Assembly (NCBI GenBank): GCA_017529425.1
Contig: JAFXNQ010000041.1
Location: 1 to 64,000, forward strand
DNA: 64,000 bases
Source of the DNA: Bacteroidales bacterium
Lineage (GTDB): Bacteria > Bacteroidota > Bacteroidia > Bacteroidales > UBA932
Direction of reading: 5' to 3'
Part shown: positions 32,645 to 47,922 of the stretch, piece by piece
Position numbering within the stretch: the first letter of the stretch is position 1
Layout: each line of letters starts with the position of its first letter
Notes under the pieces: generated by a model
Database searches by the model: none
Told to the model about the DNA's origin: nothing
The model's input: only the letters and a program-made list of their open reading frames with translations
Made by a program: the position numbers and the translations under genes

Positions 32645-35545
32645 TTATGATTTCAACCAACTTTCTACTCTCTCAATCGTCAACAACGGATATCCTTTCT
32701 CCTTGAAAAATCCAAGAATACGATCTGGATAAATCTTTAAGAACATAACATCAGCATATGCAGAGCCTAACACCTCATTCACATACTTTGCCATACCATG
32801 TGCTGCGATTCTATCTGACAATCTACTTGTAACTAATTCATACTCGTAAGATGTCCAAACCCCAAATTTAAGATAGTCTGGGAAGTCATCCAGATTCGCA
32901 TTCTCAACTTCAAATTTCCTTTTGACAAATGTAATCGCTGATCTCACTCCATCAGAAAAAACATTCTGTACAGTATTAGTCAATTGCATGACAATGTCAG
33001 AAGATATACCTACAATATTAGCTATTTCCGAATATGTTTTACCTTTCAAAAAGAGGACTGTAACATTAAAGAATAGATCCTTATTAATTCCTTCATCTAA
33101 TAGCCCAACTGTTTGTAACAGTGGAATTATATAGCTCAAGAATTCTTCTTGCTTCGATTCATTAAACTCCGCAAATCTTTCAATATCCTCTTCTTTTATA
33201 GTCTCACTGATGTCTTTGTACTGAACTAAAGTGAGTCCTGTTTCTAAGAATACCGGGTAATCGCCTCTTTCTGCCAATTCATTCATACTAGCATATCTTG
33301 CCTCAAACACTTTCACAAGCATTTGCCTGTCGGTTTCAGTGCCCAACTTATATGCAAGTGAGGCTTGGCATATTTCATCTGGATTGACAGTCTGAATATC
33401 ATCATTCTCCGCATTTCGTGATATCATAAGGTCAATACCGTCTGCTAAACCTGAATCTTCTAACAAAACATTTATCTGTTCATTTGAGGCCTCTTGCCAA
33501 TTATGTCGCCGCATAATTGTAACCAATTCGTATAAAGTACCATGGAATAAAGAAATCCCCTCTGATTTCATCGCTAAGAGAACTTTATTCTCAGCAGCCC
33601 CATTATCACTTTCAGGGACAATTACTACACCGTATCTTTGCTTCCCAGCACGACCCACTCTACCAACAATATTCTTTATAGACGCGATTGGTAGATACCG
33701 AGGCCCATGTTCATTCCCATACGAGGCTGGATCAAGTAAGTTATGAGCAACCAAGGTTTTTATGGGCATGTTCACACCCTCTGCAAGAGTTGAAGTACAA
33801 ACGATTAAAGAAATGGCTGATTTTGCATAACCATTTTCAATTACCTCTCTAATATCTTGCGGCAAGTCACCATGATGATAAGCGAATCCATTTGCCACAT
33901 AGTTCACAAGAGGATATGTGTCACCTAACATGTACTGAATATATTCTTTCAAATCCTCCAAAACCGCCTCACTATTCGAAAAGTATCTTGGCGATAGTTC
34001 TGGGATTTCTTCAATAATAGCAGCTATTTTCGCACAAATAGTGACACATCCAACAGGGCCTTTCTTGGTTGAAGAATAAATCATTACTGGCCCTGCTGGC
34101 AATGATTTCAGCGCAGTTAAACATGTCACACTTGTTTTACCCTTCTTTGCGACTTTGCATAATTCCTTGTCAACAAAACTCGAAATAGTAAAAGCCGAGC
34201 CTTGTAAACTCCTGTCCCATATATCAACATCTATCGCACCTTTATATGTTTTCGCTATTCCATACCGTAGGTCACAAGGCCGGTAGTCACTCTTACTAAC
34301 TTGTGTATTGCCCCCTCCTAGCCACTCATTGATATCTTCTATGTTCGGAATAATTGCGGACAAAAACATAAACCTCTTATGTTCTTGTTTTTTAAGGCGT
34401 GTTAGCAATAACTCATAACGGATACCACGTGTTGCATCTTCCAGCAATTGGCCCTCATCACATATAATCAAGCTAAACTCCCGCAGTTCCTCATCCAATA
34501 CTCCTTCAAGAGTTATAAAGGTCTCGGGGGTAGAAATAAGCAATTGGGCTTCTTCTATCGATGAATCACCGACATCAATAACATTACCGCCATACTTACT
34601 GGAACACTTTATATTAAACTTCCTGCCCACTTCCCTAAAACGCATCTTTAATTCCCTGCTTAAAGAGCGCAGTGGGGCAAGGTAAAGAATCTTTGCCATA
34701 GGATTGCGCTTCAGTTCTTGATATATCAACAATTCTGTGATATACGATTTACCGCCACTTGTTGCTAAACCAAGGCTAAATGATTGTTCAAATGACAAAA
34801 GCCCCCTATCCAAAGCGTCCCGTTGAGAAGGTAGAAAAGACAATATATGCTCTTCTTTTGAGTAAGCCACATATTCCATCCAGTTAGTATTAGGATCATA
34901 ATGCTTTAAATCACGCCAAATATTACTTGCTTGAAACTTATGTAATACATGCAGAAGAAGCCTCGAATCCATAAAATCTCGAGGTGACCTATAATCATAA
35001 TCCTTAACTTTATTCTCGAAGAAACCAATAATTCTTTCAAGATACTTTTCGTCACCTGTTGCCATATACTCATCGAATGGGTCAATTATATCTGCAAAAT
35101 CCTTATGCTCTTGACGGGTTACCCTGCATCCCGATATAATGTAGAACATCAACTGTCCCGCAACAGATGAATAATTATGTATCCAGTAAGACTTCAGTAA
35201 TAGTGAAGCTATTGCCTCGTACCCGCATACATAGTAAATTGCTGCAACAAAAAGATGATTATTAACGACATTGACACCTTCAAAGTCTTTGGAGGTATAA
35301 ATCTCAGAATATACAATTAATCCTTTTGCAATGTCTGCTAAGGATTGCTTTATTATTTCCTTTTCTTCTCCATCTTCTGTTTCAAATTGTTCAAGACAAT
35401 TCATCATCCTCGTTATGAGAGTGATGTAAAAGTCATCCTGTCTATCCTTAAATTCAAATGACAAGGCTGTATCCACATGATATGCCTTCACCATTTCGTA
35501 TGCCTCAGCATCTATAAAAGCCTGTTTTAGAATCTTCTCCATCAT
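32645..35545 (-). CDS. hamB: Hachiman defence protein HamB, superfamily 2 helicase
   Basis: A 966-aa Ski2-like helicase. Walker A lies in LATSGGKSYIT (Lys about 266), motif II is ICDEGQ (DEGQ about 363-366), motif III-like LSAIIP (395-400), motif V is TSTLAEGVNMPIKTL, and motif VI is IVGRVGRAGKQRYG. The N-terminal 200 residues are helical, as in HamB. It begins right after the hamA stop (TAA-ATG-ATG), so translation is coupled. In Hachiman the helicase is thought to survey DNA and release HamA to degrade it during phage infection. All helicase motifs are present. Confidence 0.9.
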   Translation of the reverse strand: MMEKILKQAFIDAEAYEMVKAYHVDTALSFEFKDRQDDFYITLITRMMNCLEQFETEDGEEKEIIKQSLADIAKGLIVYSEIYTSKDFEGVNVVNNHLFVAAIYYVCGYEAIASLLLKSYWIHNYSSVAGQLMFYIISGCRVTRQEHKDFADIIDPFDEYMATGDEKYLERIIGFFENKVKDYDYRSPRDFMDSRLLLHVLHKFQASNIWRDLKHYDPNTNWMEYVAYSKEEHILSFLPSQRDALDRGLLSFEQSFSLGLATSGGKSYITELLIYQELKRNPMAKILYLAPLRSLSRELKMRFREVGRKFNIKCSSKYGGNVIDVGDSSIEEAQLLISTPETFITLEGVLDEELREFSLIICDEGQLLEDATRGIRYELLLTRLKKQEHKRFMFLSAIIPNIEDINEWLGGGNTQVSKSDYRPCDLRYGIAKTYKGAIDVDIWDRSLQGSAFTISSFVDKELCKVAKKGKTSVTCLTALKSLPAGPVMIYSSTKKGPVGCVTICAKIAAIIEEIPELSPRYFSNSEAVLEDLKEYIQYMLGDTYPLVNYVANGFAYHHGDLPQDIREVIENGYAKSAISLIVCTSTLAEGVNMPIKTLVAHNLLDPASYGNEHGPRYLPIASIKNIVGRVGRAGKQRYGVVIVPESDNGAAENKVLLAMKSEGISLFHGTLYELVTIMRRHNWQEASNEQINVLLEDSGLADGIDLMISRNAENDDIQTVNPDEICQASLAYKLGTETDRQMLVKVFEARYASMNELAERGDYPVFLETGLTLVQYKDISETIKEEDIERFAEFNESKQEEFLSYIIPLLQTVGLLDEGINKDLFFNVTVLFLKGKTYSEIANIVGISSDIVMQLTNTVQNVFSDGVRSAITFVKRKFEVENANLDDFPDYLKFGVWTSYEYELVTSRLSDRIAAHGMAKYVNEVLGSAYADVMFLKIYPDRILGFFKEKGYPLLTIERVESWLKS

Positions 35546-36370
35546 TTAGGCATTTGGTAATTGAGCTAAAACATTTTCATAGAGAGTTTGTAAGCCTGCG
35601 ATGGGCACAAGGAATACACGAATATTGGGAAAGGTTGTAAACAAGTCATTTGGAAGCTTAGCAAATTGCTTCGCTGTGAAAGCACTGTCTACTATTGCAA
35701 CAGCGGTGAAAAGCTTCTGATATGTTACGGTATTATAAGGTTCTGCAAACCTATAAATCTGCTTATACTCAACCTTTAAACCTAAATCCTTACATCTTGT
35801 TAGGAGGTAATAGATGCTTTCTGCGGCCCTTGAAACACGGTCTTTATCTGCATCCATTACGGCATCAATAAACACGCATTGCTCCTTTTTTGCCTTATAA
35901 CCCTTTTTGTCAGTATAGTGGCCCGAAGGGACAGTTGCTCTCACTTTCACTTCAAAAGAAAACATTGTGTCATCTGGACAAGCGCCATTAGGATCAGATT
36001 TGAAAACAAGAACATCTGTATAATTGCTCGCAGCATCCTTCTTATCTTTTAGCCGCCATTTCATAGGACAGACATTTACGTCTGGATGCCAGACTTCACA
36101 TGCAAGATAATACGTCAGAATCTCACCAAAATCTCCAGCTTTCACATCTGCTGTTTTGGGCAGTCTTTCCTCTATCTCTTGTTTCCTAGTTGTTCCAAAG
36201 TCATTTACTATTTCAACCAACTTCTCTTCTTTGATATATGCTTCACGAAATGGCACAAGACATTCGCTTATAAACTGCGCTGTCTTAGTATCATCAAAAA
36301 CATATGCCGTAATACCTAACTCAGCATACGTCACGCTATCTTCCGTAAAAAATTTTTCTATGAATGCCAT
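35546..36370 (-). CDS. hamA: Hachiman defence protein HamA (DUF1837 nuclease)
   Basis: A 274-aa DUF1837 protein. The PD-(D/E)xK-type residues are visible: Glu83 in GDFGEILTYYLACEVW, Asp119 in NYTDVLVFK, and Glu140-Val-Lys142 in FSFEVKVRA. The KWRLKDKKDAASNYTD segment is characteristic of HamA. In the described system HamA is a sequence-nonspecific DNase held inactive by HamB. It is the first gene of the operon hamA-hamB-HEPN. No clear promoter was found in the roughly 80 bases upstream. Directly upstream lie IS21-type repeats and an istB remnant, which suggests arrival by or next to a mobile element. Confidence 0.9.
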   Translation of the reverse strand: MAFIEKFFTEDSVTYAELGITAYVFDDTKTAQFISECLVPFREAYIKEEKLVEIVNDFGTTRKQEIEERLPKTADVKAGDFGEILTYYLACEVWHPDVNVCPMKWRLKDKKDAASNYTDVLVFKSDPNGACPDDTMFSFEVKVRATVPSGHYTDKKGYKAKKEQCVFIDAVMDADKDRVSRAAESIYYLLTRCKDLGLKVEYKQIYRFAEPYNTVTYQKLFTAVAIVDSAFTAKQFAKLPNDLFTTFPNIRVFLVPIAGLQTLYENVLAQLPNA

Positions 36371-39612: not shown

Positions 39613-40545
39613 TTATGAAGCGATGCCCCTTCTGAGCCTTGCTACTATTGCTTTGGCCAACCTGAAATCTGCTGCCTGGTCTTTGCCATGATGAATAGTC
39701 TTGCTGCCAAAGAGAGCAATATAGATAGCATTAGCATCACATTCAAAATATACCCTTATGCCGGAACCCTTGTGCCGCAATTCATGAACACTACTGGTCT
39801 TGTCAACCTGATCAGATTTAACTAAGTCCATATTGCCATTATTTGCAGGATACAATAACCCAGCATTAATGGCATCCTCAAAACGCTGGACTACTAACTG
39901 TTGCAACACCGTTCCAAGCACACACCAGTCATCTTTGAACTCTTTACTGATAACAACCTTTCCTTTACGTCCGAGCAGATCTTGTAATCTGTCCCAAGGC
40001 TCGGACTTTGGGGGAAGCGGAGGCGTTAGCAGCTCTGTTATAAACTGATTATTATCAGTGTGCCAATTTGGAATCTCATTGCTCGACTCCTCTTCTGTCT
40101 CAATGTCCTTAAGCATCAATTTCAGAATATCACAACAAACCTTCTCCTCAACAGGCAAAGATGCTGCAATCATATCTAACTTCTGAGCAATCAGTAGATA
40201 GTGCGCATCGCGCCCATTCCACCTACACTCCTTACCGATTTCTGGGTCATCTAATAATTGTTCAGCCTCATAAATGAGCGGCACATTGCTGCCAACTAAT
40301 TTGCTAGCATAAGCGAACAAGGTCGGATTCGATTTCAACTGCCCCAACAGATCTCTAAGCGTCACACTACAAAGAGTCACATTGTCCGCATAGTCACGAG
40401 TCACCCAATGCTGAGCTAAATCCAAGAGTTCATTTTTATGAAGCTCTTTATAACCCATCACCATATCTTTAAACAACGCCCCTACGTTCTCACCACCTTC
40501 TGGCTGTTCAGGCAGGCAGTCATTCAAATAGAATCTCTTTGGCAT
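39613..40545 (-). CDS. Unknown protein with C-terminal RelE/Gp49-like toxin domain
   Basis: A 310-aa protein. Residues about 215-308 follow the HigB/Gp49 (RelE-superfamily) pattern: a helix QQLVVQRFEDAINAG, then SSVHELRHKGSGIRVYFECD, AIYIALFGSKTIHHGKDQAA and a final helix LAKAIVARLRRG. Residues 1-200 are helical and match nothing I recognise. It is the last gene of a three-gene operon, 18 bases after the AAA ATPase gene. A toxin domain fused to a large N-terminal region, encoded with a DUF262 protein and an ATPase, suggests an effector of a defence system. No cognate small antitoxin is visible. Confidence 0.6.
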   Translation of the reverse strand: MPKRFYLNDCLPEQPEGGENVGALFKDMVMGYKELHKNELLDLAQHWVTRDYADNVTLCSVTLRDLLGQLKSNPTLFAYASKLVGSNVPLIYEAEQLLDDPEIGKECRWNGRDAHYLLIAQKLDMIAASLPVEEKVCCDILKLMLKDIETEEESSNEIPNWHTDNNQFITELLTPPLPPKSEPWDRLQDLLGRKGKVVISKEFKDDWCVLGTVLQQLVVQRFEDAINAGLLYPANNGNMDLVKSDQVDKTSSVHELRHKGSGIRVYFECDANAIYIALFGSKTIHHGKDQAADFRLAKAIVARLRRGIAS

Positions 40546-40563
40546 GATCTTCGATATTTCTCG

Positions 40564-41538
40564 TTACAGCAGCCGTTCAGCATTGTTCATAAACTGTGTG
40601 AACATATCGTCAGGCCAACGATCCAAACTTCCATCCTCTTGAAGCATTGGGAATTCAATCTCGGTAGTTTCTTCGTCATTCAACCTAAACCACGCCATAC
40701 TTACTTCTTTAGAAAAGCCATGATGTTCTTTGGCATAGATGCGCACGCCGTCAAAAACGTGGTCACTATGTGTTTCTACCACAATCTGGGCTCCTGCACT
40801 AACGGCTCTACAAATCAAATCCGCCAACGCAGTTTGACCCTTTGCGTGGATATGTGCTTCTGGATTCTCAAGCAGCACAATGCTGTTCTTTTTAGTCACG
40901 CCTAATAAAATGGCGACAATAATTGGTAGAGTATAACTAAGACCAAAGCCTACATTTGTAGGAAGGTTTTCATTATAAGTAGCTGTATGGGCTTCTTGCC
41001 CGGGAACTTTGTCCATGTTAAACCTTACCCCAGGACTTATTTGTTTCAACCAACCTTGAACAACAAATTTAAAGGCCGCGCCTTCACAATCTGGTGTCAG
41101 CATTGACTCTGGCAGTACTACGCCCTCATCAGAACTCTCCTCAATACAACGCAACACATTCATTCCTTTTGAGTCTAATTCAGCATTCTTGTTGCTCGGA
41201 TAAATGGTCTGTGGGCCAATTCTGTCTGCACCAACGTATATTACCTTAGGATAACTGGGATTCTTTTCTGCACGATTCGAGTACGTTACTGCATACTCAC
41301 CGAAAACAGCTGTCAACTCCATCTTTTCCTCATGTTTATTACGTAATGTATTCTCATCGCCACAGTTCTCAGGTAGCACTTCTTCTTTACGTTCAGCCAC
41401 TCTGCCAAGAATACGTAATGCTTGTATCACACTACTTTTACCGCTACTGTTCAAGCCGGCCAAAACGTTCAATGGCTTCAGTGGTATTAATTGGTGACGA
41501 ATCGACTTATAACCGTCTATGATAAGTTGTTCAATCAT
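40564..41538 (-). CDS. AAA/ABC-type ATPase with DUF3696 C-terminus
   Basis: A 324-aa OLD-like ATPase. Walker A is GLNSSGKS (residues 28-35), the signature-like segment is VGFGLSYTLPIIVAIL, Walker B is SIVLLENPEAHIHAKGQTALA, and QIVVETHSDHVFDGVRI is the switch region. The end (FPMLQEDGSLDRWPDDMFTQ) matches DUF3696. The start overlaps the end of the DUF262 gene by 4 bases, so the two are translationally coupled. ATPases of this type act as sensors or motors in several antiphage systems. Function here is inferred from context. Confidence 0.85.
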   Translation of the reverse strand: MIEQLIIDGYKSIRHQLIPLKPLNVLAGLNSSGKSSVIQALRILGRVAERKEEVLPENCGDENTLRNKHEEKMELTAVFGEYAVTYSNRAEKNPSYPKVIYVGADRIGPQTIYPSNKNAELDSKGMNVLRCIEESSDEGVVLPESMLTPDCEGAAFKFVVQGWLKQISPGVRFNMDKVPGQEAHTATYNENLPTNVGFGLSYTLPIIVAILLGVTKKNSIVLLENPEAHIHAKGQTALADLICRAVSAGAQIVVETHSDHVFDGVRIYAKEHHGFSKEVSMAWFRLNDEETTEIEFPMLQEDGSLDRWPDDMFTQFMNNAERLL

Positions 41539-42962
41539 TTGTATGCATTAATTAAATTGTTGATAATCCCATATCGGTAACTTACGCTCCACTTGCTCAT
41601 ACTGTCACGAGAGATAGCAATAATAAAATTTTCATCATACAAGTATCTGCCATATTCCTCAATCATCCCATCTCTGTGCGACAGTAATCTTTCAAACTCT
41701 TCGTCCGTCAGTCTTGACAATAGCACACCCCAAGTTTCAAACAGCGACTTATTAATTGGAGAACGCCTGTAATTAGGCATGCTCTTTCTGAAGGCATGAG
41801 GTCCGAACAAGTCCCTTCCCCTGAGCATCGCCTTCTCAAATGAGCGCTTTATTTCATCTTTGGTCAGCACAGTTACATCACTCACTGCCATATTCCCTTC
41901 TTTTACCAATTTCTTTATGTCGCGATTGTTCAGTTCAGGAAGCGCATTGTATATCATCATAGTATCACCAAGCCAAGTATCAACATTCATCGATTTATTA
42001 TAACGCGTAAAATCGCGTAGCATAAAAGCGACAAATCGTAAAACGAGTTCCTTATCTTCCATACGCAGGCTCTTGACCGACCATCCTGTTGCATCTTTAA
42101 AGCAATGCATATCAGCCAGTTCATTAAGAAGAATTGAGCATTCTCCTCCATAGAGAGCATTGCGGATTTCTTGTGGACTGAGTGTTAGTCCACCTGTATT
42201 AATTCGCTTAAATATGTTACGTTTTACATCTTCTGGAGTTCCTGGATTAATAATGGTGAATGTAAACTCCGTCTCCATAATACGATTTACGTAAAGAGTT
42301 GGCAGTTCACTCATATCATGACCATTCAACAGATTTCCGCAAAATTCCAATCCTTCTAACCTGAAACCATGCCCCTTTCTCGAAATATCTTGTGTTGCAA
42401 GATATTCATTACCCAACACGAAATCTCTTATAGTGCTAAGACGCTGCAGGCCGTCCACCACAGTCCAATAATCGTTAGTATCTGCTGATACATAAAACAT
42501 TGGAATTGGTATGCGAAGAAGCAACGACTCTATCAGCTGGCATTTCCTCGTATTATCCCAAACTTCCTTACGCTGAAATCCAGGATTCAGCTTAATAGTC
42601 TTCTGCTCCATACGTCTTATAATAGCATCCATAGACACCACCCTCTTCTCTATCGAAATTGACGACGGGTCAAATGGTTGTTTCGATTCGTCATCAACGT
42701 TCACAGAAAGCTCAGGCGCCTCATCCTCTATACCCTTCACTTCCTCATCATTCAGTTTTTTCTCAAGCAACTCTATAGTGTGCTGCGTTTCCTCTGAGAC
42801 AGTCTGCTTCAATAGGGTTGATACTTCATCAAGCCGTCCTCCTTCAAATTGCAAACGTAAAGTTTGACCATACTCAGATTTAACAAAGTATAGCCCAGGT
42901 GTACTGCCGGTGCTTACATCCTGCAGTTCTACGTATGGTATATATAGCTTTTCTTCGCTCAT
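41535..42962 (-). CDS. DUF262 (ParB/GmrS-like) protein
   Basis: A 475-aa protein. Residues about 100-330 form a DUF262 domain: NPGFQRKEVWDNTRKCQLIE, then IPIPMFYVSA, and the nucleotide-binding motif VDGLQRLSTIRDF with D170-G-L-Q-R174. FKRINTGGLTLSPQEIRNAL is also a family motif. A C-terminal helical part follows but no DUF1524 HNH domain is seen, so it is not a GmrSD-type fusion. It is the first gene of the operon DUF262 - AAA - RelE-like. DUF262 domains bind or hydrolyse nucleotides and occur in type IV restriction and other defence systems. Confidence 0.85.
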   Translation of the reverse strand: MSEEKLYIPYVELQDVSTGSTPGLYFVKSEYGQTLRLQFEGGRLDEVSTLLKQTVSEETQHTIELLEKKLNDEEVKGIEDEAPELSVNVDDESKQPFDPSSISIEKRVVSMDAIIRRMEQKTIKLNPGFQRKEVWDNTRKCQLIESLLLRIPIPMFYVSADTNDYWTVVDGLQRLSTIRDFVLGNEYLATQDISRKGHGFRLEGLEFCGNLLNGHDMSELPTLYVNRIMETEFTFTIINPGTPEDVKRNIFKRINTGGLTLSPQEIRNALYGGECSILLNELADMHCFKDATGWSVKSLRMEDKELVLRFVAFMLRDFTRYNKSMNVDTWLGDTMMIYNALPELNNRDIKKLVKEGNMAVSDVTVLTKDEIKRSFEKAMLRGRDLFGPHAFRKSMPNYRRSPINKSLFETWGVLLSRLTDEEFERLLSHRDGMIEEYGRYLYDENFIIAISRDSMSKWSVSYRYGIINNLINAYK

Positions 42963-43099: not shown

Positions 43100-44368
43100 T
43101 TACTTCTTCACCAGTTTAATTAAGCTCTCTCTCAAGAAATCAATATTCCCGCTGTTCTTGGTCTTCCGTTTTCTGATATCCCTTAGTTTCTCTATTCCTT
43201 TGAGAGTAAACCCTGCCACTGTTCCAATGTGACCTATTATTGTATCGACTGGGATTTCCATTCCGGCATATGCTGATGTAGAAACCACTATCCACACTTG
43301 ACCTCCATCCCTCATCTTTTTGAAGATAGAGTCTAGTATATCCTTCATATCTTCAAAATAAGCTTGAACCATCAGTGGAATTCTTTTACACATAAGCTTC
43401 TCTTGATGACTCAATAAATACTCCATCACACTGGTATAGTCGGGACCAAAGTTTTGTTCCGTTGGTGTAGGCCATAGAGCTTGCACATGCGAACGCACCG
43501 TATTTAGTCTCAATTGATAAAGAGCCTCATTGTTTGGTATAAAACCTCCCATGAACAATTCTGGTCTATATATATCAGTATAATCAAACGTATTGAGATA
43601 AGGAGGTGAAGTTATACACAGTGAATAGGTATTCACATCATCTTTTTTAAGGAACGAACGGCTATCTTCGCAAACAATGAGGGGTAATGATTCCACATGC
43701 GTCGTTTTCACATCTTCAAGACATATTTTCAGTCTATCAGAAAGTGATTCCACGAAAGACTCTCTATCATATCCGTTATTTTCCCATCCTTTCTTATATT
43801 TAAAGCATTTGCCATCTCGTCGCGCATTTGCATTGGCCATCAACGACGAAACGAGGGCAAGTTTTAGAATATCCTTAATTTGAACAGAATCGACGTTTTC
43901 AAGAAATTGGAATCCTCTCTCATATGCATCAGCTACAGGTCGGTTAAACAGCCATTTCTTTAAACTTTCGTGTTCCGTAAACGTCGATATTCCTATCCAT
44001 CTTGATGTGGAAAGTGTATCTTTCTTTATAGCTTCTATCAACGACTTCGAATAAACTTCAAGTTCCTTCGCTTCAACATTATTGGCTTTAGTCCTGGCGA
44101 TAAAAGCGGTAAAAGGGTTTACCTCTACGCCAACTGAGGGAATTCCTCTTATGGCGCTTGTCAGTGTTACAGTACCACTTCCGTTGAAGGGATCTAAGAT
44201 AAGGTCATCGCTTCCCAAATGGAGCTCATCTATCGCCTTGTTGACAAGATTGGGCGAAAAACCTTCTTTGTAGTAATACCACCGATGCCTTGGTAGATTC
44301 ACCGTATCGATAGCATTTGATAGGTTTGCTGCCATATCAACACTCACGTTATCAATCTTGATAGGCAT
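43100..44368 (-). CDS. DNA methyltransferase (N4-cytosine/N6-adenine amino-MTase)
   Basis: A 422-aa protein with the AdoMet-binding motif LILDPFNGSGTVTL (DPFNGSGT at residues 59-66) and the catalytic motif TSPPY (253-257, CITSPPYLNTFDY). The binding motif precedes the catalytic motif, the order of alpha or gamma amino-methyltransferases rather than the common beta order. SVGVEVNPFTAFIARTKANN marks the adenosine-binding acidic loop. It overlaps the nuclease-like gene upstream by 17 bases and is the last gene of a five-gene unit. It probably protects host DNA from the associated nuclease. The recognition sequence is unknown. Confidence 0.9.
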   Translation of the reverse strand: MPIKIDNVSVDMAANLSNAIDTVNLPRHRWYYYKEGFSPNLVNKAIDELHLGSDDLILDPFNGSGTVTLTSAIRGIPSVGVEVNPFTAFIARTKANNVEAKELEVYSKSLIEAIKKDTLSTSRWIGISTFTEHESLKKWLFNRPVADAYERGFQFLENVDSVQIKDILKLALVSSLMANANARRDGKCFKYKKGWENNGYDRESFVESLSDRLKICLEDVKTTHVESLPLIVCEDSRSFLKKDDVNTYSLCITSPPYLNTFDYTDIYRPELFMGGFIPNNEALYQLRLNTVRSHVQALWPTPTEQNFGPDYTSVMEYLLSHQEKLMCKRIPLMVQAYFEDMKDILDSIFKKMRDGGQVWIVVSTSAYAGMEIPVDTIIGHIGTVAGFTLKGIEKLRDIRKRKTKNSGNIDFLRESLIKLVKK

Positions 44369-45401
44369 CGTTGCTAACCTTTATAAAGAACCGATAGGGT
44401 TTTTTAAAATCAGTTCTTAATGTTTCATACTGAGGATTATATGATATTTCACGCTCTTTGTAGTAGTTAGCATTCTCACGAGAGATCTTAACGGCATGGG
44501 GGTCGTTATTCTCTTTTCTACGAAGATCAAATACTGCCAAATAGCCAACCGTTACATAATGCGGATAAGTATCTCCATTGTTGTCAATATAATTGACCAA
44601 CTGTGCAGCCCCACTATTAGCTCGCCCATCTGCATATGGCACCCCTATTTCACCTTTATCATTCAATGATTTTCCTATCCATTTGATTTCAATAAGTGCA
44701 ATGTGACTAGTGCCCTGCCATGTCACAATAATATCTACTGGATGGGAATCATCTACAATGTGTTCGCGTTTTACGGTACAATGACGCAATCTGATACTCA
44801 GATACTCTTCTAGAGCCTTTTGCAGATTCTCCTCTGGTGCGGGATAAAAAAACAAGCGTGCCTCATTCATCGATTCAGACAAGTATTTCCCTTTACAAGA
44901 AAGAGCTACATTATCCCTGTAGTTTATCAATGCTTCGTCTAAATCATTGTAAGTTCTGACAGCAAAGAAGCTACCTTCACTCGGTGTTTCTTCATCGGAG
45001 AAAGCATGTAGTGTTCCTTTTATATAGAACTGATCCGCTTGCTTCTCATTGGCTCTCCATCTGTATACAAATGTTTTACCAGATAGAGCCATTGCATCAA
45101 AATGGTCGTCTTGCACTACGTTGAGGGTGTCTTCATCTACAAATCTCACTACTAATCGTTTTGTTGAGACGGAATGTATGTTATCCATCTCCATCGTTTT
45201 GCAGTAATCCTGATACTCCGCATAATTCCCCACATAAGCCATTATGCTCTCATATTGACTTATGTCTATTGCCTTGTACAGTTTCTTCAATTGTGACACA
45301 CAGAATTTAAAATCATCAATAGCTTCGCTACCGTATGTGTCATCAATCTTCAGTATAAACTGCTTTTGCAGCACCCTGATTAACGTCTCTTCCGTTTTCA
45401 T
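44352..45401 (-). CDS. Candidate PD-(D/E)xK nuclease, effector of the ABC-type system
   Basis: A 349-aa protein. The C-terminal part holds a PD-(D/E)xK-like core: Asp223 in HPVDIIVTW, then ALIEIKW with Glu238-Ile-Lys240, preceded by a helix with Glu near 198-199. The following GAAQLVNYIDNNGDTYPHYV is often seen in restriction-type nucleases. Residues 1-180 are of unknown fold. It starts 3 bases after the 193-aa gene and overlaps the methyltransferase gene, so the four genes are tightly coupled. The call as nuclease rests on the motif alone. Confidence 0.65.
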   Translation of the reverse strand: MKTEETLIRVLQKQFILKIDDTYGSEAIDDFKFCVSQLKKLYKAIDISQYESIMAYVGNYAEYQDYCKTMEMDNIHSVSTKRLVVRFVDEDTLNVVQDDHFDAMALSGKTFVYRWRANEKQADQFYIKGTLHAFSDEETPSEGSFFAVRTYNDLDEALINYRDNVALSCKGKYLSESMNEARLFFYPAPEENLQKALEEYLSIRLRHCTVKREHIVDDSHPVDIIVTWQGTSHIALIEIKWIGKSLNDKGEIGVPYADGRANSGAAQLVNYIDNNGDTYPHYVTVGYLAVFDLRRKENNDPHAVKISRENANYYKEREISYNPQYETLRTDFKKPYRFFIKVSNDAYQD

Positions 45402-45404
45402 CGT

Positions 45405-45986
45405 CTATTCCAATTCCTGCTTCAAATACTCCAACCAAGATAGGGCGGGTATAAACAGATTCTTGCGTTCTCCTATGGCTTGCCTTACAATGCCAAACTG
45501 CTGATGTAATCTGGATATAGCAGAATTATCCTCACTATTCAAATATTTCATTGTATGAACAGACGATTCTGTAATAACAGAATCACCTGATAATATATTA
45601 AGCAACTCTGCAATCGTACCTGTCAACAAACAGTCACACGCAGCCTGCAGATATTCCTGACGTGATTTAAACAGGTCCATCTCCATCATGAATAATAGTC
45701 GAGTTTCACCAGCTCCAGTACTATGATAACATGCATCTTTTTTCTCAAGCTGCCCTTTTCCTATCAACAATGAGCAGGATTCTGCAAGTTCTGCTGAAAC
45801 TGGGGCTCCCTGCACATTTCGCATAAACGAATAACCCCAGTTTGATACAGGATTACCTTTATAAAGTGACAGCAGACATCCAAAGTAACTTAGAAAGGTT
45901 ACTTCCATCAGGCTTAAACTTTCATACTGACTCTCCGTCTTATGCACAATATATAGCGTATCGAATATAGCAGTCGGATTAGGCAT
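45405..45986 (-). CDS. Small unknown protein, possible middle component of an ABC three-component system
   Basis: A 193-aa mostly helical protein with no catalytic motif that I recognise. Its start overlaps the end of the SMC-like ATPase gene by 8 bases and its stop is 3 bases before the nuclease gene. An ATPase, a small helical protein and an effector in this order match the layout described for ABC three-component (ABC-3C) conflict systems, where the small middle component links ATPase and effector. The segment SLMEVTFLSYFGCLLSLYKG is the most hydrophobic part. Assignment is by position, not by sequence family. Confidence 0.5.
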   Translation of the reverse strand: MPNPTAIFDTLYIVHKTESQYESLSLMEVTFLSYFGCLLSLYKGNPVSNWGYSFMRNVQGAPVSAELAESCSLLIGKGQLEKKDACYHSTGAGETRLLFMMEMDLFKSRQEYLQAACDCLLTGTIAELLNILSGDSVITESSVHTMKYLNSEDNSAISRLHQQFGIVRQAIGERKNLFIPALSWLEYLKQELE

Positions 45987-47922
45987 ATTGCACTTTAAGT
46001 TTTTCTTCTATCTTTTCGTATGCATCTTCTATCACGCTTTGCTCTTCTTGTTGGACCTGGGTTAGTATCGTCCATTCAGTCATGCGCTCTATCTTCATCT
46101 TTTGTTCGCCGCACAATTCGGCCAACTTAAGCAACAACTGAGACGAATTGATATTGGCCGTCATTATCACACTATAACCCTTCGTCACAAAATCAGCAAA
46201 CATCTTACCAGCCCGACTCTCGTAAGCCACATCTAATGAGCCTTCTGGTGTATCAATCAACATAAAGGCACGATCTGTGTGGATGTTCTCAATAAGAGAG
46301 AAACGCAAAGCAATATCCAAAAAATACTGTTGACTTTCTGAAAGTTGGTATCTCAAGCGGCGATCCGAACCGTTCACACTCACTACTAAGCTGGGCATTC
46401 CGCTCACATTTCTCAGTTCCACATCTATATCCAGGCCAATAAAACTCTTGGCATATTGTTGGAAAGTTGGAATAAACGTCTCTGCCATCGTTGCATACTG
46501 CTGTTTCAGTGCATCGTCCAGTGGTTTTAGCTCTTCCTGACAATTGTTGCGGTTGTTTTCTGCGTCTTCTTTTTCTTTGCGTAGTTGACTTATGTTCAAG
46601 CGTAATGCCTCTATCTCCTTTTGAACCTGTTGTCCTTGCTGGATATTGTTTTTCTTTGCCAATATAGACTCGTTCGTCTTGACAAATTGCTCTATCTGTT
46701 GATTCAGTTGTTCAATTTCTGATTTGTCGGTTTCCAACTCTGTATCCAGTCTTCTGAGTGTTTCTGTCAATTCACCGGCCTTGTGCTTAAGTTCAGAAAG
46801 AATCCCATCTAGTTTCTTAAGCTCTTTCAGTACAGCCTGTTCATTTTCAACTTGTTTGTGTTTAATGACATCAACAATGGTCTGGCGCAAATTGCCAACC
46901 AACTCTTCAATGTCGGCATCCTCGTTCTCAGTAAGCCGCAGAATAATCTGTTTCAGTGAATATTGAATGCGATCATCGCTCTCAATGGCCACACCCGAGG
47001 TGGTATAAAGAGAACCGAACAGCTGTTCATATTGAGTTTTAATCTCGTTTTGTTTCAGCGCATTATCATCTATCTGGAGCTTAGTTTCTTCTCTTCTTGC
47101 TTTCTTTTGTTCTAACAGCCGTTGCTTTTCGTCACGTGCTGTCTGTATAGCATCTATCGCATTGCAAGCCTCCTCAATTTCATTCATTTCTTGCTCTGAA
47201 ACAACACCGTTTGATTGTAGTTTGCCTAACCTTTTCTCTACTTTACTGATTTCCCATTGAATATTGCGCATATTAGACTCAAAGCGCTTGATATTTTTGC
47301 GTAGTATATCTGCTCTTTGTGCATTGCCAGAATCAATAGAAAAGAAAAGGTACATCACACGGCTCATCACATCCTCATCCCAAAATAGGAGTTTCTTACT
47401 TTCATCAAAAGTGAGAACGTATGTTTGTATGAATATATACTGATCAAATGACGATAGTTCTGAGTCTTGTACAAAAAAACGTTTATACTGGTCTTGTAAC
47501 GACTCTTCATCTGTAACCGTCTCATTCCCCTCTATATCGCACCTGCTATAATTCAGCAGATCAGCACCATTGAAGAATCCACGGGTGATGCTGTATAAAT
47601 AATCACCTAATGTAAACTCTACTGTCACCTGTGCCTGCATCCTATCACGCTCATCGATACGTCCTTCAAAGAATGTGTCTGCAAAGCCATATGCCTTCTT
47701 AACAAATTCAGAAATGGAGTTCAGTGATTTGAAATCAATGTTAGGTTGTACAACCACTCCTGTCATAGCATACGACACAATGGATATAAATGTAGACTTA
47801 CCCAAACCGTTCGCTCCGGCAAGGCACATCACTCCATCCTTCACGTCAATCTCTATGCGTCGCTGCAATTTATAGAGTGAGAAATTCTCTATAACGATTC
47901 TGTTGATCTTTGGAAGTTTCAT
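45979..47922 (-). CDS. SMC/Rad50-like coiled-coil ABC ATPase
   Basis: A 647-aa protein. Walker A is GANGLGKST (residues 36-44). A long coiled coil covers about residues 210-490 (Glu/Gln/Lys-rich heptads). Then come the signature YQLSESQQYFLDIALRFSLI and Walker B/D-loop FMLIDTPEGSLD. The C-terminus ends in a further helix. No nuclease domain is fused to it. It is the core of a cluster with a small protein, nuclease candidate and DNA methyltransferase, all within overlapping or near-touching genes. Such ATPases sense DNA structures or invading DNA in several defence systems. Confidence 0.85.
   Translation of the reverse strand: MKLPKINRIVIENFSLYKLQRRIEIDVKDGVMCLAGANGLGKSTFISIVSYAMTGVVVQPNIDFKSLNSISEFVKKAYGFADTFFEGRIDERDRMQAQVTVEFTLGDYLYSITRGFFNGADLLNYSRCDIEGNETVTDEESLQDQYKRFFVQDSELSSFDQYIFIQTYVLTFDESKKLLFWDEDVMSRVMYLFFSIDSGNAQRADILRKNIKRFESNMRNIQWEISKVEKRLGKLQSNGVVSEQEMNEIEEACNAIDAIQTARDEKQRLLEQKKARREETKLQIDDNALKQNEIKTQYEQLFGSLYTTSGVAIESDDRIQYSLKQIILRLTENEDADIEELVGNLRQTIVDVIKHKQVENEQAVLKELKKLDGILSELKHKAGELTETLRRLDTELETDKSEIEQLNQQIEQFVKTNESILAKKNNIQQGQQVQKEIEALRLNISQLRKEKEDAENNRNNCQEELKPLDDALKQQYATMAETFIPTFQQYAKSFIGLDIDVELRNVSGMPSLVVSVNGSDRRLRYQLSESQQYFLDIALRFSLIENIHTDRAFMLIDTPEGSLDVAYESRAGKMFADFVTKGYSVIMTANINSSQLLLKLAELCGEQKMKIERMTEWTILTQVQQEEQSVIEDAYEKIEEKLKVQYA

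Follow-up and report, generated by a model that had tools for sequence, protein, structure and literature searches.

Three genes run on the minus strand from position 42962 to 39613 of a 64,000-nucleotide stretch of a Bacteroidales contig (the window) in the order DUF262 protein, ATPase and 310-aa protein. A 4-base overlap (ATGA) joins the first two, and 18 bases separate the second from the third (Table 1). An earlier note on this DNA had placed the three open reading frames and the 4-base overlap exactly as they were found here.

Table 1. Features of the triplet and of its surroundings in the window
Feature	Position	Strand	Description	Evidence
nsnA (ptuX)	41535..42962	-	475-aa DUF262/GmrSD_N ParB/Srx-like NTPase, without DUF1524	Pfam, PADLOC
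nsnB (ptuY)	40564..41538	-	324-aa ABC/OLD-type ATPase, DUF3696 C-terminus	Pfam, PADLOC, Walker motifs
nsnC (ptuZ)	39613..40545	-	310-aa putative effector, N-terminal scaffold plus predicted C-terminal RelE/HigB-type BECR domain	PADLOC, AlphaFold2
NsnC N-terminal scaffold, residues 1-180	40006..40545	-		Profile matches across effector classes, alignment A5
NsnC predicted C-terminal RelE/HigB-type BECR domain, residues 189-310	39613..39981	-		VIA-align, conservation
Hachiman pair	32645-36370	-	HamB helicase; HamA	HamB, PADLOC 1.5e-189; HamA (DUF1837) 2.9e-40
Four tightly packed genes upstream of nsnA	43100-47922	-	Methyltransferase, 349-aa protein, 193-aa protein, SMC-like ATPase	

The sole Pfam domain of the 475-aa NsnA is GmrSD_N/DUF262 (2.3e-22). 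A DGLQR motif begins at residue 170, with D170, G171, Q173 and R174 invariant in alignment A1, and the motif and the domain match together bear out the description of this protein as a D170-GLQR DUF262 protein. NsnB matches AAA_15 (2.2e-23) and, in its tail, DUF3696 (2.7e-6), with a Walker A motif GLNSSGKS at 28 and a Walker B motif LLENPEAH at 222. The label "OLD-like" DUF3696 ATPase holds for the ATPase domain, which is of the OLD kind, and for the DUF3696 tail, but not for the TOPRIM nuclease domain: the 324-aa protein has no TOPRIM match at E values up to 1, and an OLD nuclease with a C-terminal TOPRIM was rejected on that ground. Pfam finds a DUF1524 nuclease domain in none of the three proteins, and judged by that domain the locus was not assigned to GmrSD type IV restriction. 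As had been remarked, there is no small antitoxin-like ORF within or adjoining the three genes, the only small ORFs nearby being three of 28-53 aa, downstream.

PADLOC models match all three proteins: NsnA over residues 68-473 of the 475-aa protein (4.5e-126), NsnB over residues 1-324 of the 324-aa protein (1.6e-77), and NsnC (PDLC03897) over residues 4-304 of the 310-aa protein (1.1e-19). These are the gene names of the Menshen system of Millman et al. 2022, and the locus is almost certainly Menshen (nsnABC). The window has the same three proteins in the same order (DUF262, ABC ATPase, third protein) and no difference was found that sets it apart from Menshen. Its NsnC has a HigB/RelE-type C-terminus, whereas other Menshen loci have other C-terminal domains. 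According to a review, Menshen consists of DUF262 and a predicted OLD nuclease; although it mentions an OLD-family domain, no TOPRIM domain is seen in the window NsnB. Menshen confers phage resistance, which is abolished by deleting or mutating its DUF262 gene (PMC10952713), and the proposed role of the triplet in phage defence is upheld through this known family.

The same arrangement has been described under a second name. In Gerdes 2025 (mBio, PMC11980606), ptuXYZ comprises a DUF262 protein without DUF1524, called a putative nuclease, a P-loop ATPase, and a third protein in which the second of two domains is a BECR toxin domain. The window locus shares the DUF1524-less DUF262 protein, the P-loop ATPase and the C-terminal BECR fold in a two-domain protein. 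The third protein of ptuXYZ is described as having a YoeB-related C-terminal domain and a PIN-like N-terminal domain, whereas the window NsnC domain is nearest to HigB and its N-terminus had no PIN match among the chains compared. The word "Menshen" is absent from the text of Gerdes 2025 (PMC11980606), and the literature searched yielded no paper that joins the two names. The earlier note had regarded the arrangement as unnamed; this was rejected in view of the PADLOC matches of the three proteins to nsnABC and the ptuXYZ description (PMC11980606). The locus is an ordinary copy of an already known system whose arrangement has been named twice, as nsnABC and as ptuXYZ.

The triplet sits in a defence island that also holds a Hachiman pair. 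Among the four genes upstream of nsnA, the methyltransferase matches MTase_II (3e-60), the SMC-like ATPase matches LmuB (5e-22), and the 349-aa nuclease-like protein has weak similarity to SduA_C; Pfam and PADLOC gave no identity for the 193-aa protein. A larger unit that includes these four genes was rejected: 137 bases separate them from nsnA, no homologue of theirs turned up in any of the fetched relative loci, and the gene for the nuclease-like protein recurs in one other genome among 296 of the phylum, as a weak partial match. The Hachiman pair was likewise not seen next to the triplet in relatives. These genes are possibly an undescribed defence unit of their own.

Comparison of neighbourhoods confirmed that the three genes keep together. 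Relatives were found by means of NsnA and NsnB in Bacteroidota genomes, a scan of 84,980 species, and viral contigs. This gave 96 NsnA-NsnB pairs and 92 distinct third proteins encoded by a same-strand gene directly downstream. The 92 distinct triplets come from many phyla and keep the order A-B-C, with a median A-B overlap of 4 bases and a median B-C gap of 2 bases; a unit in which 92 distinct homologous triplets keep their order is far from chance. Nine apparent exceptions proved on inspection to result from the end of a contig, a broken frame, a fusion or an artefact of ORF calling, and all but one, which ends at a contig edge, contained NsnC or a piece of it. Conversely, an NsnC model run against 395 genomes of the phylum gave three strong matches, all adjoining nsnAB. 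Unrelated genes surround the triplet in L100, the closest complete relative, and no conserved extra partner was seen in the flanks of the relatives. A type II toxin-antitoxin module was rejected for the lack of a small adjoining antitoxin gene and of such a partner. A plasmid search with NsnC and a viral-contig scan with the window NsnB gave no match; a viral-contig scan with the NsnA alignment found nsnABC-type loci. In one relative (L108:6945-8285) a single 446-aa ORF covers NsnB together with the C-terminal portion of NsnC; either a deletion has fused the two naturally or the assembly is wrong here.

Several lines of evidence identify the C-terminal domain of NsnC. Pfam gives no match in the window protein, searching the sequences of solved structures with the whole protein or its C-terminus gave nothing useful, and NCBIfam TIGR02683 (RelE/ParE) matches residues 250-301 weakly (3e-4, below its cut-off). 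Among the 42 NsnC relatives of the RelE type, Pfam Gp49 is found in 16 (best 7.6e-11) and TIGR02683 in 19. The AlphaFold2 model of NsnC (mean pLDDT 93.5) has a C-terminal domain with the order strand-helix-helix-strands-helix. VIA-align superimposes residues 189-310 of the model on HigB1 of M. tuberculosis (Z 10.7, rmsd 3.5 over 105 residues), on RelE in complex with the 70S ribosome (Z 8.9, rmsd 2.5 over 92 residues) and on Cami1 (Z 7.0). The top matches all belong to the RelE/ParE superfamily; Foldseek matches are weaker (best E 7.8e-3, to HigB2), and sequence identity is about 13%. The predicted structure thus confirms a RelE/HigB-type BECR fold for residues ~190-310, and together with the family matches in relatives it substantiates both the RelE/Gp49-like domain that had been read from the sequence and its fusion to an uncharacterised N-terminal region.

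Four polar residues of this domain are conserved among 45 relatives, E255 (44/45), R257 (41/45), R264 (45/45) and K282 (39/45), which, from family membership, would correspond to catalytic residues of HigB and RelE toxins. The likeness to these type II toxins extends to the fold and to the conserved E, R, R and K, whose equivalence is presumed; the difference is that they are paired with a small antitoxin, whereas NsnC is fused to a scaffold of ~190 residues and has no such gene. Because the RelE/ParE superfamily also includes the ParE gyrase inhibitors, the fold by itself does not reveal the target of NsnC.

The N-terminal scaffold has a high-confidence model (pLDDT 96, pTM 0.90) and an invariant N8 in alignment A5. 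Neither the PDB (best Z 3.5) nor a set of viral models offered a convincing match to its fold; no PIN chain stood among the chains compared, which is no disproof of a PIN fold.

Clustering of the C-terminal 115 residues divides the NsnC proteins into nine classes, whose counts are not population frequencies because relatives were gathered by similarity to the window NsnA and NsnB. The HigB/RelE-like class has 53 members, the window included. Class C1, with an RIHF...IGYIGxHL ending (e.g., L172:5114-6091), has 25 members and no Pfam match, and its C-terminus is possibly another BECR-like domain. There are four members with a TTGxNxxET ending, three YoeB-like members (Pfam YoeB 6e-10 in L173) and one DUF4160-like member (Pfam 2e-9 in L140); the remaining classes are smaller and unnamed. 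Separately, the NsnC proteins of L096:4130-4849, L092:4128-5012 and L035:4804-5727 have C-termini without a Pfam match, in classes of one or two members, and may thus hold toxin domains that have gone unrecognised.

In profile comparison the HigB, RIHF, TTG, YoeB and DUF4160 classes are homologous in their N-terminal parts, with HHalign probabilities of 90-99 for most pairs; across the same five classes HHalign detects no homology between C-terminal parts, except for one weak match between HigB and RIHF (77). Placing the nine classes on the NsnB tree requires a minimum of 11 changes, and payloads have therefore been exchanged on a common NsnC scaffold. A scaffold common to HigB, YoeB, DUF4160 and other classes is as expected for a docking part joined to a payload. 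Tentatively, residues 1-180 could have a fold unlike any solved structure and serve as a common socket on NsnA/NsnB, with toxin domains swapped in during evolution and an antitoxin-free RelE/HigB RNase as the payload here. Because effector classes such as DUF4160 exist, Menshen does not need a RelE domain, and its common step may lie elsewhere. Going by its title, Li et al. 2025 (NAR gkaf357) deals with domain polymorphism in Menshen and probably covers the exchange of NsnC C-terminal domains.

A mechanism can be proposed for the RelE-type form. NsnA, as a ParB/Srx-like NTPase, and NsnB, as an ABC-type ATPase, would form the sensing and switching part, onto which NsnC would dock through its N-terminal scaffold. 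Upon infection, a nucleotide-driven rearrangement would enable the C-terminal BECR domain to work as a ribosome-dependent mRNA endonuclease and so stop translation. In our estimate there is a little better than an even chance that infection is sensed by NsnA and NsnB, which gate NsnC, and that NsnC then cuts mRNA at the ribosome in the manner of RelE and Cami1; complex formation, infection sensing, RNase activity and translation arrest are the steps that we infer. Cami1 of type III CRISPR, a fusion of CARF and RelE that cA4 activates to cleave mRNA in the A site (PMC11229360), provides a precedent for a sensor-fused RelE effector. Both proteins are larger defence proteins that end in a RelE domain, but the N-terminus of Cami1 is a cyclic-oligoadenylate sensor, whereas that of NsnC showed no such match.

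How the partners control NsnC can be read in two ways that are about equally fair, and the data fit both. NsnC may be harmless alone and be assembled or switched on by NsnA and NsnB after infection, the partners acting as activators rather than as an antitoxin. This quite possible course is consistent with the lack of an antitoxin-like ORF in or beside the operon, with the lack of a conserved extra partner in the flanks of relatives, and with Cami1, whose RelE fusion responds to a signal instead of being released from an antitoxin; it has to contend with the fact that free RelE-type toxins usually act without helpers. The confirmed RelE-type domain and the strict co-occurrence of nsnA, nsnB and nsnC suit the version of the earlier note, in which NsnC is constitutively toxic and is kept neutralised by NsnA and NsnB until infection sets it free. 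Such restraint is conceivable but somewhat doubtful, as nsnC comes last in the operon and a type II inhibitor is normally a small protein wrapped around its toxin, of which no counterpart is seen at the locus.

A different division of labour would make DNA damage by NsnA and NsnB the main antiviral act, through nicking by the DUF262 protein or an OLD-type nuclease, with NsnC as an accessory back-up. The review's account of Menshen, with its predicted OLD nuclease beside DUF262, points this way, as does the description of the DUF262 protein as a putative nuclease in Gerdes 2025 (PMC11980606). At the window locus, however, NsnA lacks DUF1524 and NsnB lacks TOPRIM, and nsnC, which carries a toxin-family domain, is kept in essentially every readable locus, all of which makes this unlikely. 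Taken as a whole, the reading of the locus as an anti-phage Menshen system (nsnABC = ptuXYZ) with a RelE/HigB-type effector and a gating mechanism is reasonably probable.

Beyond its RelE-type effector and the link between Menshen and ptuXYZ, the locus itself is ordinary. That link ties an experimentally supported system to a bioinformatic proposal. For Menshen, the RelE-type NsnC offers a concrete, testable effector, and it would be an example of a RelE-type domain that is controlled without a classical antitoxin.
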